From an uncultured Paracoccaceae bacterium (GTDB taxonomy: Bacteria > Pseudomonadota > Alphaproteobacteria > Rhodobacterales > Rhodobacteraceae): a stretch of 64,000 nucleotides of DNA. The DNA lies in contig CANNFA010000001.1 of assembly GCA_947503765.1 (NCBI GenBank), positions 434,001-498,000 of the forward strand, read 5' to 3'. The notes below the pieces were generated by a model that saw only the letters and a program-made list of their open reading frames with translations, had not been told where the DNA came from and ran no database searches. Made by a program: the position numbers and the translations under genes. Positions 2,468 through 6,406 of this stretch are shown here, in pieces. Positions within the stretch are counted from its first letter, which is position 1. The number at the start of each line of letters is the position of its first letter.

Positions 2468-2971
2468 CTACCCTTCCCGCTTTGCGTCCAGCAGGGTGAG
2501 CGGGTCGAAATCGTCGTCGAAGTTTTCCAGCCAGGCTTCGGTCTTGGCCAGTTCCTCGGTCTCGTAGACGTCGGGCTGCCAGATCTGGAACGTGTCGCCG
2601 GTGGCGATGAAGAACGCTTCGTCGCCAAGGCCGATCTTCTCGCGCAGTTTCTTGGCCAGCACGATGCGGCCGGTCTCGTCGACCGAGATCTGGGTCGACT
2701 GGCCGGAGAACATCTTTTCCAGCATCTTGCGCTCGACAGAGCCGCGCTGCATCCCGGCAATCTGGTCGTCGACCTCGTCGATTGCCTGAATAGTGTAACA
2801 TTCAAGGAATTTTCGGCGGTGGTCGCCATATACAATGACGAATTCGGGTGATTTTCCGTCGGACCAGCCGGGATCGCCCTGCTCCAGCACACGGCGAAAC
2901 TGGGCCGGGATGGACACCCTGCCCTTGCCATCCACCTTCTGGTGGAATTCGCCTCTGAACCGTCGCGCCAC
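2468..2971 (-). CDS. mraZ: Transcriptional regulator MraZ
   Basis: MraZ is the first gene of the division and cell wall cluster. It is a 167-residue protein with two SpoVT-AbrB-like domains: FHQKVDGKGRVSIPAQFR near the N-terminus and the matching DETGRIVLAKKLREKIGL near residues 99-117. MraZ forms a ring-shaped oligomer and represses its own operon by binding short direct repeats upstream. Four ATGGRA-like repeats with about 10-base spacing lie at 3245-3279, about 275 bases upstream of this start, and are the likely operator. The fixed spacing of D-x-x-GR in both halves makes the assignment firm. Confidence 0.96.
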   Translation of the reverse strand: MARRFRGEFHQKVDGKGRVSIPAQFRRVLEQGDPGWSDGKSPEFVIVYGDHRRKFLECYTIQAIDEVDDQIAGMQRGSVERKMLEKMFSGQSTQISVDETGRIVLAKKLREKIGLGDEAFFIATGDTFQIWQPDVYETEELAKTEAWLENFDDDFDPLTLLDAKREG

Positions 2972-3244
2972 TGTCCCGCGGCTCCTTTACCCCCCGTGCT
3001 TCCCGGTTCCGCCTGAAACGGAAATGGCGGATTGAGCTGCTGCCACTGCCCAATCCGCCATCCATGGCCCGCTTGGCGGGTAGTCCAGCTGCGCGCGCCA
3101 CCTGGGGGGATGTCTGCTCGCCCGCGCGCCGGATCTCTGTCGTCGATGAAAGCGGGGTGCCTGTATGAAACCTGCTTTTTTTATTGTTGGTTTTCGGGGT
3201 CTTGCGCCCCTTTGGCCCGTCTTCATCGTGTGAACAGGGATGCC

Positions 3245-3279
3245 ATGGGATTTCATGGAAGTAAATGGAAAAGATGGTG
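3245..3279. promoter_or_regulatory. Candidate MraZ operator (four ATGGRA-type direct repeats)
   Basis: The + strand shows ATGGGA at 3245, ATGGAA at 3255, ATGGAA at 3265 and ATGGTG at 3274, giving a period of 10, 10 and 9 bases. MraZ in other bacteria binds TGGGA/GTGGG direct repeats separated by about 5 bases, so the spacing fits. The array reads opposite to mraZ and sits about 275 bases upstream, implying a long leader. The link to MraZ is inferred from spacing and position. Confidence 0.55.
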
Positions 3280-3762
3280 GCGACCTATGTGAAAGGGGGT
3301 GAATGCTGGCACAAAAAGCACACTTTGTGGAAGAGGCAGGGTCTGAAAAACCATATATAGATCAAACCACTTTGCCGAACACCATATAGCCGAAATCCCC
3401 TCCCTGAAAAAAGTTCCACGAATTCCCGTGAAAGTCTCCACCCTCACCCGTTCTGACCGATCCTGTGAGTCAAATCCACGGGAATCATCGGTCTTGCGGC
3501 AAGAATTCCGGGGGATTCTGCAAGCGGAGCCGGAATCGGCCGGGCAGTTCCATGAATTCCCAATCGCGGCCTCCCCAGCGCCTTTGCGCCTGCGGCCGCG
3601 CCGTCCGGCATGCCCACGCTCGCCGCAGCGCAGCATTCGCATTCCCGGCGGCCGCCCTGCACAGAGTCGACAATTTTCAACAATCAAATCGCTTTGAGGC
3701 GAAGTTTCACTGCCGCTACGTCACATATGCAGCGGCCGCATAGCGGAGTTGAGGCTTCGTCT

Positions 3763-3790
3763 ATTGTGCATTCGCAGCATTCGCATATCT
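3763..3790 (+). promoter_or_regulatory. Candidate RpoH-type (heat-shock sigma) promoter for the DUF1127-CcsR transcript
   Basis: ATTG at 3763-3766, a 17-base spacer, then CATATCT at 3784-3790. This resembles the alphaproteobacterial RpoH pattern CTTG-N17-CYTATNT with two mismatches. Transcription would start near 3797, leaving a leader of about 60 bases before the DUF1127 ATG. In Rhodobacter sphaeroides the homologous locus is driven by RpoHI/RpoHII, which supports the idea but does not prove this site. Confidence 0.45.
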
Positions 3791-3859
3791 TCCTGCTCAA
3801 CAGCGACGGACATGCACCGCCGCCGACCGAGACACAGAATTGATATGAGGGAAAGCACC

Positions 3860-4084
3860 ATGGCTTTCATGAACGACACACACGCCCTTCGTGGCACGAA
3901 CCCGGGCCTGATGAACCGTATGCGCACCGAATTCTCGCGGGTCCGCGAGAACGCCGCCAAGCGCCGCCTGTTCCGCGAAACGCTGAACGAGCTGCAGGGC
4001 CTGACCCCGCGCGAGCTTGACGACATGGGCATCGCCCCCGGCCAGTTGCGCGATGTCGCCTGGACGGCGACCTACGGCAAGTAA
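3860..4084 (+). CDS. DUF1127 small protein, CcaF1-like RNA-binding protein
   Basis: A 74-residue basic protein whose C-terminal half carries the DUF1127 pattern (RLFRETLNELQGLTPRELDDMGI, residues about 38-60, shown here in two overlapping pieces: RLFRETLNELQ and LTPRELDDMGI). A ribosome-binding site GAGGGA lies 8 bases before the ATG. It is followed directly by four CcsR-type small RNAs. In R. sphaeroides this same arrangement is known: the DUF1127 protein CcaF1 is cotranscribed with CcsR1-4, and the RNAs are cut from its 3' UTR. CcaF1 is reported to bind RNA and help CcsR maturation. I infer the same role here from synteny and the motif. The symbol is left blank because this copy is untested. 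Confidence 0.88.
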   Translation: MAFMNDTHALRGTNPGLMNRMRTEFSRVRENAAKRRLFRETLNELQGLTPRELDDMGIAPGQLRDVAWTATYGK

Positions 4085-4092
4085 GAGTTTCG

Positions 4093-4170
4093 ATTTCAGA
4101 CCACCCTCTCCTCCTCCCTGGGGGGTCTGAATTCAAGCGGCGGCATCTTCCTCCTCCCTGATGCTGCCGC
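4093..4170 (+). ncRNA. CcsR1-type small RNA (double hairpin with CCUCCUCCC loops)
   Basis: The first unit of the array. Hairpin 1 pairs TTCAGACC (4095-4102) with GGTCTGAA (4124-4131) and exposes CCTCCTCCC at 4110-4118. Hairpin 2 pairs 4137-4147 with 4160-4170 (11 pairs including one G-U) and exposes CCTCCTCCC at 4150-4158. This two-hairpin design with anti-Shine-Dalgarno loops is the hallmark of the CcsR or 'cuckoo' RNA family. It starts 8 bases after the DUF1127 stop, so it is probably processed from that mRNA. Confidence 0.85.
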
Positions 4171-4177
4171 ACCGATA

Positions 4178-4255
4178 CGCGGGCGCCGGCTCCTCCCATA
4201 ACGGCGCGCGCGCATGAAGGCGGCGGCACCCTCTCCTCCTCCCTGGGTGCCGCCG
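4178..4255 (+). ncRNA. CcsR2-type small RNA (double hairpin)
   Basis: The second unit. Hairpin 1 pairs GCGCCG (4183-4188) with CGGCGC (4202-4207), extended below by CG-rich pairing. Its loop carries the shortened motif CTCCTCCC at 4190-4197, the only one of the eight loops without the full nine bases. Hairpin 2 is a perfect 11-base-pair stem (4221-4231 with 4245-4255) around CCTCCTCCC at 4235-4243. Confidence 0.82.
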
Positions 4256-4272
4256 ACCTACTTGAAACGGGA

Positions 4273-4350
4273 TCGGACAGGCCCACCTCCTCCCGGGCAT
4301 GTCCGTAAGCGAAGTCGGCGGCTCCCTCTCCTCCTCCCTGGGGGCCGCCG
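4273..4350 (+). ncRNA. CcsR3-type small RNA (double hairpin)
   Basis: The third unit. Hairpin 1 pairs CGGACAGGCCC (4274-4284) with GGGCATGTCCG (4295-4305), with a single internal mismatch, and the loop is essentially only the motif CCTCCTCCC (4286-4294). Hairpin 2 pairs 4316-4326 with 4340-4350 (one G-U pair) and exposes CCTCCTCCC at 4330-4338. The stems differ in sequence from the other units while the loops are fixed, so selection is acting on the exposed loop. Confidence 0.85.
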
Positions 4351-4366
4351 CACTTCCACTCACGGA

Positions 4367-4445
4367 TCGGACGCCGGACCTCCTCCCGGAATGGCGTTCG
4401 CAGCGAAGCGGCGGTGTCCTCCTCCCTGGGCATCGCCGTTTTCGT
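4367..4445 (+). ncRNA. CcsR4-type small RNA, last unit with terminator-like tail
   Basis: The fourth unit. Hairpin 1 pairs CGGACGCC (4368-4375) with GGCGTTCG (4393-4400), with CCTCCTCCC at 4379-4387. Hairpin 2 pairs CGGCGGTG (4409-4416) with CATCGCCG (4431-4438), with CCTCCTCCC at 4418-4426. It is followed by TTTTCGTTT (4439-4447), so this hairpin probably also acts as the intrinsic terminator of the whole DUF1127-CcsR transcript. trpA begins about 70 bases later. Confidence 0.82.
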
Positions 4446-4513
4446 TTCCGCTTTGCCCATTGATTTCCGCCCGCGTCTTCGCCAAACCCGCCGGGACGGA
4501 ACCGGGGGAAAAG

Positions 4514-5305
4514 ATGACACGGATCGACGCCAAATTCGCCGAATTGCGCAAGGCCGGGCGCCGCGCCTTCGTGTCCTATGTCATGGCGGGCGATCCCGAC
4601 TATGCCGCCTCGCTCGAACTGGTGAAGGGGTTGCCGGCCGCGGGCGTGGACATCATCGAGCTGGGCCTGCCCTTCACCGACCCGATGGCCGACGGCCCGA
4701 CGATCCAGTTGGCGGGGCAGCGCGCGCTTGCCGCGGGAATGAGCCTTCAGCGCACGCTCGACCTGGCGGCCGAATTCCGCAAGACGGACGACACCACCCC
4801 GATCGTACTGATGGGGTATTACAACCCGATCTACAATCGCGGCGTCGACACCTTTCTTGCCGACGCCAGGGCGGCCGGGATCGACGGGCTGATCGTGGTG
4901 GACCTGCCGCCCGAAGAGGATGACGAGCTGTGCATCCCGGCGCAGAAGGCGGGGCTGAACTTCATCCGCCTTGCCACCCCCACCACCGACGACAAGCGGC
5001 TGCCGCGCGTGCTGCAGAACACGTCGGGCTTCGTCTATTACGTCTCGATCACCGGCATCACCGGCGCGGCCGAGGCGCGGCCCGAGGATGTCGCGCCCGA
5101 GGTCGCGCGCATCAAGGCGCAGACCGATCTGCCCATCGTGGTGGGATTCGGCATCACCACCCCGGACGCGGCCGAGGGCATCGCCGGCATCGCCGATGGC
5201 GCGGTCGTGGGGTCGGCCATAGTGTCGCGGATCGCCCGCGGAGAGCCGGCGCAAAAGGTGCTGGATTTCGTCAAGACCCTTGCCGATGGGGCGCACCGCG
5301 CCTGA
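4514..5305 (+). CDS. trpA: Tryptophan synthase alpha subunit
   Basis: TrpA cleaves indole-3-glycerol phosphate to indole and glyceraldehyde 3-phosphate, and channels indole to TrpB. It has 263 residues with a TIM-barrel. The two catalytic acids fall at exactly the reference numbers, E49 ([11 protein letters not shown]) and D60 (MADGP). The C-terminal phosphate-binding GFGITTP and GSAIV loops are present. The ATG at 4514 has GGGGGAA 4 bases upstream. trpB is not in the window, and the gene stands alone after the CcsR array, so it may depend on its own promoter between 4446 and 4513 or on read-through. Confidence 0.97.
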
Positions 5306-5344
5306 CGGGCTTGCGGGCGCGCGCGCAACATGCATCCTGCGTCC

Positions 5345-6166
5345 ATGACATTGCCCCCCGACCGTATCGCCGCCCTTGCCGAGCAACTTCTGGCCGCGCG
5401 TGACGCGAACCGCCAGATCGCGCCGATTTCCGCGCGCGAGCCGGATTTCGACTGGCCCGATGCCCATGCCATTGCCGGCCGGATCCGCACCCTGCGCTTT
5501 GCCTCGGGCGAGGTGCCGGTGGGCCGCAAGATCGGCTTTACCAACCGCACCCTCTGGGAGCGCTACGGTGTGACCGGCCCGATCTGGGGCGACATGTTCG
5601 ACCGCAGCGTGCACCGGCTGGACACGCCGCGCGCGACCGTTCCGCTGCCGCCCCTGCCCGAGCTGCGGATCGAGCCGGAGATCGCCTTCGGCCTTGGCAC
5701 CGCGCCCGAGCCGGGGATGGATGTGGCCAGCCTTGCGCGCTGCATCGCCTGGGTCGCGCACGGGTTCGAACTTGTCAGCTCGGTCTTCCCCGGCTGGCGT
5801 TTCACCGGGCTGGACAGCCACGCCGCCTTCGGGCTGCACGGCGCGCTCTATCTCGGCCCCGCCCACAAGCCGGAGGGGTTCGGCAGCGACCTGCCCGCCG
5901 CACTGTCCGGCCTGACGCTAAGCCTGTCCGGCGGCGCCGGGGTCGAGGCACAGGGCAAGGGCACCGACGTGCTGGACGGGCCGGTGCAGGCGCTCGGATT
6001 CCTGGTGGAAGGGATCGCCGCCGCACCCGGAGAGGCGCCGCTGCGGGCCGGCGACATCGTCACGACCGGCACTTTGACCGACGCGATGCCGGTGGCCAAG
6101 GGCGACACCTGGCGCACCGTTCTGACGGGCGGCCCGCTGCCAGGGCTTGAGCTGACGTTTTCCTGA
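5345..6166 (+). CDS. 2-keto-4-pentenoate hydratase family protein (FAH superfamily)
   Basis: A 273-residue protein of the MhpD/HpaH-type hydratase and decarboxylase family within the fumarylacetoacetate hydrolase fold. Such enzymes act on 2-oxo-dienoic acids from aromatic or lignin degradation. Family marks are GRKIGFTNRTLWE in the first third, the metal-binding EPEIAF around residue 105, HGFELVSSVFPGW, and the closing GDIVTTGTLTDAMPV. No other aromatic-degradation gene is nearby, so the substrate cannot be guessed. The start at 5345 is chosen because the family begins near it. An in-frame ATG at 5330 is also possible, and neither has a good ribosome-binding site. Confidence 0.85.
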   Translation: MTLPPDRIAALAEQLLAARDANRQIAPISAREPDFDWPDAHAIAGRIRTLRFASGEVPVGRKIGFTNRTLWERYGVTGPIWGDMFDRSVHRLDTPRATVPLPPLPELRIEPEIAFGLGTAPEPGMDVASLARCIAWVAHGFELVSSVFPGWRFTGLDSHAAFGLHGALYLGPAHKPEGFGSDLPAALSGLTLSLSGGAGVEAQGKGTDVLDGPVQALGFLVEGIAAAPGEAPLRAGDIVTTGTLTDAMPVAKGDTWRTVLTGGPLPGLELTFS

Positions 6167-6406
6167 TGGCGGGGAATGCCGTGCTGCAATATTCATATAT
6201 CGAACATTCGCATGAAAATTTTGCGGCTTTGATGCTGGATAATCGTACATATATTGGATTCGGGGATTATTGGGCATCAGGCCGAAAGCGTCCCCGCGGC
6301 GCGACGGCGCTTGCCGCGCGCCCGCGCCTGTGGCACCTCGGCGGCAGGGAGGCACCGGCCGCAAAGCCCACGGCCGGGCCGGCGCACCGTTTGCGGGGAT
6401 GAACGC
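6167..6406 (+). promoter_or_regulatory. AT-rich leader and probable promoter region of glcEF
   Basis: The first 100 bases are unusually AT-rich for this window. A loose promoter fit is TTGATG (6229-6234) with TATATT (6250-6255) at 15-base spacing, which is short. The second half is GC-rich and holds no clear open frame. It starts the glcE-glcF transcript. Notably no glcD precedes it. Confidence 0.3.

Follow-up and report, generated by a model that had tools for sequence, protein, structure and literature searches.

An array of CcsR-like anti-Shine-Dalgarno hairpins behind a DUF1127 gene in a Roseobacter-group bacterium

The described systems closest to the locus analyzed here are the ccaF1-CcsR1-4 locus of R. 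sphaeroides, the ar14 RNAs of rhizobia, and the cuckoo RNA family/CIN1 locus. In R. sphaeroides, a DUF1127 gene is followed by a hairpin array in its 3' UTR (PMC10253847, PMC8625941), and a figure legend places an RpoHI/RpoHII promoter upstream of ccaF1 (PMC10253847). Earlier work describes flhR mRNA as a target of CcsR1-4 and reports an effect of these RNAs on the pyruvate dehydrogenase complex (PMC8307010); in alphaproteobacteria, CcsR-like RNAs are said to be accompanied frequently by a short DUF1127 gene (PMC10253847). Members of ar14 are described with three hairpins; the ar14 RNA NfeR1 has its own sigma-70 promoter, and most of its target candidates are ABC transport systems (PMC10746234).

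We analyzed a stretch of 64,000 nt, hereafter the window, from the genome of an uncultured marine Paracoccaceae bacterium (3.98 Mb in 30 contigs). Among the 80 named trpA loci that were kept, a set from which very near records were possibly left out, the nearest TrpA was that of Antarcticimicrobium luteum (86%), which identifies the host as a Roseobacter-group bacterium. The window contains a hairpin array that is itself a known, well-conserved kind of regulatory RNA locus. With high confidence, we read the locus as a ccaF1-CcsR operon of the CIN1/cuckoo/ar14 kind, in which a DUF1127 protein is encoded together with four two-hairpin RNAs that would block translation via anti-Shine-Dalgarno loops, with importers as likely targets. 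This confidence does not extend to control by the regulator PhaR, which is weighed separately below.

The hairpin array of the window

The array lies behind a ccaF1-like gene on the forward strand (3860-4084, 74 aa), whose product matched the DUF1127 domain (PF06568; 38 bits, E 1.3e-9), in agreement with the initial annotation. Eight copies of CTCCTCCC were located at 4111, 4151, 4190, 4236, 4287, 4331, 4380, and 4419. No further copy was found outside the array on either strand of the 64-kb window, and 8 of the 50 copies in the 3.98-Mb genome fall within the array, with no second cluster among the listed sites. The base before the motif was C in seven loops, giving CCTCCTCCC, and G in the third (4190), giving GCTCCTCCC; the seven identical loops and one deviant loop described initially were thus recovered. 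In a fold of the whole 3' UTR, all eight motif sites formed hairpins, the first of which starts 7 nt 3' of the DUF1127 stop codon. Eight hairpins had been placed at 4093-4438 from inspection of the sequence, and both count and coordinates proved correct (4092-4446 by the folds). In the same fold, the mean unpaired probability of the motif was 0.99-1.0 in hairpins 1-4 and 6, and 0.59, 0.80, and 0.87 in hairpins 5, 7, and 8, respectively. Reading frames across the array were mechanical, and a coding role was set aside.

Based on the folds, the eight hairpins can be read as four two-hairpin units, all on the forward strand: unit 1 at 4092-4175 (hairpins 4092-4134 and 4137-4170), unit 2 at 4178-4259 (hairpins 4178-4212, with the odd loop GCTCCTCCC, and 4218-4259), unit 3 at 4270-4356 (hairpins 4274-4305 and 4311-4356), and unit 4 at 4364-4447 (hairpins 4368-4400 and 4402-4446). 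In an Rfam search at E 0.1, the CcsR1 model (RF02791) matched units 1, 3, and 4 over its full length. The scores of 43.5 bits (E 6.5e-9), 45.2 bits (E 2.1e-9), and 20.8 bits (E 0.035), respectively, are all below the gathering score of 65.3 bits, and the E-values refer to a 1701-base search. The pair at 4178-4259 gave no CcsR1 match at E 0.1; its first hairpin lies inside a match to ar14 (RF02344) at 4090-4216, which extends over hairpins 1-3 and scored 59.6 bits, narrowly above the gathering score of 58.8 bits. When 11 other array loci were searched at the gathering score, ar14 was matched in four and CcsR1 in none. The covariance search suggested at the outset therefore returned ar14 above its cut-off and CcsR1 three times below, twice with strong E-values. 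Because the CcsR1 matches are significant but below the cut-off, we file the array as CcsR-like and not as a curated member of RF02791. Together with the gene order, the matches support an array of the ccaF1-CcsR1-4 type, inside the cuckoo/ar14 kind, as had been proposed from the sequence.

The final stem of unit 4 runs into TTTTCGTTTCC and may double as a terminator; a terminator scan that admits loops of 3-8 only did not report it. Across 301 hairpins from 31 arrays, stems were fitted to their own partners: with the motif held open in the calculation, the mean folding energy was -20.8 kcal/mol with the own flanks vs -10.7 kcal/mol with 3' flanks swapped within an array and -9.6 kcal/mol with flanks swapped between arrays. 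Moreover, 259 of the 301 hairpins folded better than all three within-array flank swaps drawn for each, which bears out the earlier claim of compensated stems around a fixed loop. Nearly equal folding with one of the swapped flanks was nevertheless seen for several of the window's hairpins (e.g. hairpin 6, -26.2 vs -25.8). The stems had also been called unrelated, and they do vary in general, but this description fails for hairpins 4 and 6, whose 5' flanks are 89% identical, and for hairpins 1/4 and 1/6 (56% each).

Compared with R. sphaeroides ccaF1-CcsR1-4, the window has the same order of a DUF1127 gene and then CCUCCUCCC-loop hairpins, readable as four pairs; by its position, the array lies in the 3' UTR of the DUF1127 gene, and the folds give two hairpins per unit with CCUCCUCCC loops. 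An alternative-sigma promoter has been reported there, and a conserved promoter unlike that of sigma-70 precedes the array here. Unlike the R. sphaeroides locus, the window has CcsR1 scores below the cut-off, one unmatched unit, one GCTCCTCCC loop, and a trpA gene 3' of the array, the last being a trait of the window's genus. The ar14/NfeR1 RNAs of rhizobia share several CCUCCUCCC-loop hairpins with differing stems, but ar14 is described with three hairpins and NfeR1 with its own promoter, whereas the window has eight hairpins behind a gene. With the cuckoo family and the CIN1 locus, the window shares a short DUF1127 gene beside CcsR-like RNAs and, as judged from folds and flank swaps in place of the published matcher, a fixed CCUCCUCCC loop on freely varying, self-fitting stems; in contrast to them, relatives of the window include arrays without DUF1127.

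Arrays, DUF1127 genes, and neighbors in relatives

Of 292 genomes of the order, which all belong to one family, 278 have a pair of motifs 20-48 nt apart, as do all five genomes of the genus, the window's own included; a reversed-pattern control was rarer in nearly all rows. For closer comparison we used 31 arrays, namely the window and 30 loci picked from the listed coordinates. Six of the seven large arrays were taken in deliberately, and several loci come from one genus or nearly repeat one another (e.g. L158/L175 and L168/L169/L170). In this set, chosen to contain large arrays, the number of exact loops ranged from 3 to 23, where a loop is an exact CTCCTCCC at most 170 nt from the next and variant loops are missed. 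Within the window's genus the counts were 8 (window), 10, 12, 12, and 14. The largest array, with 23 exact loops (L168, genome G151), contains longer stretches that recur almost unchanged. Four genomes (G106, G136, G155, and G231) have the promoter block described below and lack the exact motif pair; their loops may have diverged.

DUF1127 frames were sought with an HMM built iteratively from two of the 31 array loci and their matches. In 25 of the 31 arrays, the DUF1127 frame ends upstream of the hairpins, with its last sense codon 20-47 nt ahead of the first loop motif. A further locus, L177, has a three-loop array with the DUF1127 frame downstream and no detectable second promoter element (element 2, below). 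In the remaining five arrays (L148, L149, L151, L160, and L162), no DUF1127 match was found within 3 kb. Three of these (L148, L149, and L151) belong to the window's genus, have arrays of 12-14 loops, and carry reduced frames of 41, 36, and 41 aa, respectively, with a similar start and ending at about the same place; the short frames of L149 and L151 gave no Pfam match at E 1. Upstream of L160 and L162 there is no such short frame, and these arrays lie behind the conserved promoter block. Since five of 31 arrays lack DUF1127 within 3 kb, the DUF1127 protein is dispensable for upkeep of an array. The range of 3-23 loops, together with the lack of a detectable DUF1127 domain in five of the 31 arrays, three of them from the window's genus, may be a new observation. 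The window's own genome holds an additional DUF1127-like stretch with an in-frame TGA (L140; G000:C6:163230-163397).

On the upstream side, the array is divergent to mraZ (2468-2971, reverse strand; PF02381), an arrangement conserved in the family: the window shows it, as do 26 of 30 other fetched loci, and in the remaining four mraZ was absent from the 671, 4638, 5336, and 6050 nt fetched upstream. In 24 of the 26 mraZ loci, a frame of 350-418 aa lies between, on the mraZ strand, and the three that were scanned were Mrp-like (NUBPL family). This frame is missing between mraZ and the DUF1127 gene in the window (2972-3859), as well as in L160 and L162. The initial annotation had suggested that the divergent mra cluster and the nearby trpA may feel the locus. 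For the mra cluster, the linkage is indeed conserved, but a regulatory effect found no support, and linkage does not amount to regulation. In 2900-4071, examined for an UpsM-like RNA in the mraZ leader, no match at E 0.1 was obtained to Rfam, which may or may not include UpsM; the minus strand had one terminator-like site vs a shuffle mean of 1.7.

Downstream, trpA (4514-5305, forward strand; PF00290) adjoins the array in the window and in all four genus relatives, and in none of the 26 other fetched array loci. Conversely, none of the 80 named trpA loci had an array upstream, three of them with only 63, 600, and 636 nt of upstream sequence. Coupling to trpA as a general feature was rejected, as the adjacency is confined to the genus, and the suggested influence on trpA found no support. 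A plasmid search with window positions 2500-6200 returned trpA alone among the matches listed. Two records titled Nocardioides marinus (L035) and Enemella evansiae (L100) hold trpA genes 85% and 76% identical, respectively, and their titles look wrong.

The promoter block and its possible link to PhaR

Upstream of the DUF1127 gene, the forward strand of the window contains two TGC-rich elements. Element 1 (3725-3751) reads TATGCAGCGGCCGCATAGCGGAGTTG, with a consensus of TATGCAnTTGCTGCATAGCnGCATTG in relatives, and includes the dyad CCGCATAGCGG at 3736-3746. Element 2 (3764-3779) reads TTGTGCATTCGCAGCA and overlaps a putative -35 hexamer, TTGTGC (3764-3769); a putative -10 element, TATCTT (3786-3791), was recognized by column conservation in 46 loci. 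From the conserved columns in these 46 loci (TTGTGC-N15/16-YTATNTT), we infer a transcription start near 3799-3800. Promoter scoring covered 57 array loci (59 minus two without PhaR), allowing at most two substitutions in element 2 and at most five in element 1. Both elements were present upstream of 46 of the 57, with the consensus TATGCAnTTGCTGCATAGCnGCATTG plus ATTGTGCRnnYGCAGCAT, which leans on the search pattern used; three of the misses (L274, L275, and L291) are two-motif places that are probably not arrays. A strict composite block was detected in 200 of the 292 genomes, as a single copy except in seven genomes with two places, and its reversed control in none; the position of the block beside an array was confirmed for only part of the 200. 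Within two substitutions, TTGTGCANNNGCAGCA was found upstream of 30 of 31 arrays; the same pattern alone has 238 places in the window's genome, or about 0.05 per 900 nt. Element 2 has 15 one-mismatch copies in that genome, one of them in the phasin promoter. This conserved block, whose two TGC-rich elements resemble PhaR boxes and which is akin to phasin promoters, may be new.

The PhaR site of R. sphaeroides is reported as CTGCNNNGCAG, and two copies are described as flanking the -35 element of S. meliloti phaP1 and phaP2 (PMC12542648). A phaR gene is present in the window's genome (G000:C2:544642-544821) and in 290 of the 292 genomes of the order. The phasin gene of the window's genome adjoins phaR, with a Pfam score of 22.3 bits vs a cut-off of 24.9 bits. 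For comparison we used the best 30 of the 290 PhaR loci and that of the window's genome; 27 of the 31 had a phasin match. The promoter test could draw on 25 loci, and the 3' UTR test on 25 loci chosen by a different criterion. PhaR is not known to bind a ccaF1 promoter.

Whether PhaR adds control over the array promoter appears, on comparative grounds, to be evenly balanced. Of the 57 array-upstream regions, 29 contained an exact CTGCNNNGCAG (background 0.07 per 700 nt) and 53 a copy within one mismatch (background 0.6), and 24 of 25 phasin promoters contained the exact site (background 0.04 per 250 nt). When an element-1 matrix was applied to the phasin loci, the phasin promoter was the best place in 19 of 25, against 1.9 expected; 200 permuted matrices gave a mean of 1.9 and a maximum of 16. 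In the two genomes without PhaR (G081 and G246, of one genus), the GCAGCA of element 2 is lost. These observations argue against the alternative that some regulator besides PhaR acts at the block, or that the block belongs to an extended RpoH promoter, a reading to which we give a little less than an even chance. The same PhaR-less pair favors this alternative in another respect, as both genomes retain ATTGTGC and, in element 1, the core GCATGGC. Neither has an exact CTGCNNNGCAG, and one copy within a mismatch was found in L272. The window's own elements contain no CTGCNNNGCAG, exact or at one mismatch; the dyad CCGCATAGCGG of element 1 differs from the PhaR site at two positions and shares with it the GC-N3-GC core alone, the GC pairs of element 2 are separated by four bases, and three one-mismatch copies of CTGCNNNGCAG lie elsewhere in the 700 nt upstream. 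An element-2 matrix picked the phasin promoter in only 8 of 25 loci, no more than permuted matrices can achieve (up to 14). Among loci with PhaR, L279, L283, L285, and L298 deviate from the standard form of element 2, and L177 lacks the element. The RpoHI/RpoHII promoter placed before ccaF1 in the figure legend cited above (PMC10253847) likewise favors the alternative.

The phaP gene itself carries a motif of the same kind. Among 25 phaP-phaR loci, 24 have their first CCTCC 5-33 nt past the phaP stop, in most of them in a hairpin loop; in L220, L222, and L223 it was without a convincing hairpin. The full CTCCTCCC (CUCCUCCC) was found between phaP and phaR in 8 of the 25 loci. In a shuffle control, CCTCC occurred within 100 nt in a mean of 5.9 and at most 12 of 25, and at 305 frame ends of the window's genome CCTCC was found within 40 nt in 13 and CTCCTCCC in none. 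The phaP 3' UTR of the window's genome (L210:3999-4063, on G000:C2) gave Rfam matches that were all below cut-off, the best being SorX with 28.9 vs 46.6 bits. PhaR-controlled phaP of Rhodobacteraceae thus resembles the array locus in its TGC-rich promoter dyads and its CCUCC motif, mostly loop-borne, just 3' of the stop; it differs in having a single motif, and the window's dyad is CCGCATAGCGG and not CTGCNNNGCAG. A single anti-Shine-Dalgarno motif behind phaP may be new as well. Among the matches listed in a literature search, seen as titles and the starts of abstracts, none links PhaR, phasins or polyhydroxybutyrate with CcsR or DUF1127; such a link may exist in the core papers on the system. 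In the accessible parts of PMC10371769, PMC9230146, and PMC11354728, several of the terms co-occur and the PhaR-CcsR link is not made. The main text of PMC8625941 contains neither phaP nor phasin, and PMC12218461 names DUF1127 and phaP, with PhaR and CcsR absent.

Candidate targets and interpretation

Outside the array, 42 copies of GGGAGGAG in the genome were compared with 42 of its complement CTCCTCCC. Twelve of the 42 are followed at 4-10 nt by an ATG whose frame stays open as far as the fragment reaches, vs 2 of 42 for the complement (P 0.003). When GTG and TTG were admitted, the numbers were 16 and 10. With a looser rule for the start codon, 21 of the 42 passed, as did 13 of 42 in the control, a high number. 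Of the 21 candidates from the looser test, 20 were scanned, the short frame L305 being left out; L356, at 76 aa and without a match in Pfam, is unlikely to be a gene. Importer components (ABC/TRAP solute-binding proteins and permeases), as read from Pfam names, made up 11 of the 20 scanned genes behind a perfect 8-nt complement vs 4 of 39 controls with strong Shine-Dalgarno sequences (P 0.0004). Counting EamA and an ABC-exporter-like protein, the controls rose to 6 of 39 (P 0.002). Of 40 controls drawn, one at a fragment edge was dropped; they were matched for Shine-Dalgarno strength roughly and scanned at E 1e-5 vs 1e-3 for the candidates, all 11 importer calls passing 1e-5. The frequency of importers among genes behind perfect complements may likewise be new, although importer genes might simply favor strong Shine-Dalgarno sequences. 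The pattern fits an anti-Shine-Dalgarno mechanism, short of proof.

Taken together, a single transcript would start near 3800 and comprise the small DUF1127 protein's frame, then eight hairpins in four pairs. By analogy with R. sphaeroides, where such processing has been reported, RNase E, assisted by the DUF1127 protein, probably cuts the transcript into four small RNAs. The loops, showing CCUCCUCCC or a near variant, would pair with GGGAGGAG-type ribosome-binding sites and block translation, and the computed predictions point to solute importers as likely targets. Given that one sequence is repeated from loop to loop, the number of copies may set a dose. The two TGC-rich promoter elements suggest additional control by PhaR, a regulator tied to polyhydroxybutyrate granules.

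Other functions of the hairpins can be weighed against this mechanism. It is improbable, in our judgment, that they mainly dock a protein (Hfq or the DUF1127 protein) or sponge an RNA-binding protein, with mRNA pairing secondary. CcsR is described as interacting with Hfq (PMC8307010), and the spread in the 31 arrays, from 3 to 23 exact loops, is what a titration device would permit; however, the loop is an anti-Shine-Dalgarno sequence whose perfect complements precede importer start codons, and the survival of arrays with a truncated or missing DUF1127 domain speaks against a role for the DUF1127 protein alone. Far less probable is that the array serves purely as the structural 3' end of the ccaF1 mRNA, a terminator or nuclease barrier that has no function in trans. 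A barrier needs no fixed loop, and here the loops are alike while the stems vary and fit their own partners; the GC-rich stems and the U-rich tail after the last stem would suit such an end, but trans effects of CcsR have been described for R. sphaeroides (PMC8625941, PMC8307010).

The array itself is one more instance of a stress-RNA system already described, to which the comparison supplies testable additions, among them the importer-rich candidate list. Bench work is merited for the possible link to PhaR, for the hairpin behind phasin genes, and for the lost DUF1127 domain; lineages without this domain that keep a large array would allow the function of the RNA to be separated from that of the protein. 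Tentatively, and with less confidence than in PhaR control of the array promoter, we propose that ccaF1-CcsR and phaP form the two arms of a single regulon that responds to polyhydroxybutyrate. PhaR would hold both promoters via TGC-rich dyads, granules would draw PhaR off, and both transcripts would rise, so that storage doses a brake on importers. Both transcripts carry anti-Shine-Dalgarno hairpins behind a stop codon, one at phaP and 3-23 at ccaF1. In this view an array can survive the loss of its protein, as in those members of the genus that have 12-14 loops and no DUF1127 domain. If the proposed regulon is real, carbon storage would set the dose of a general brake on the translation of solute importers.
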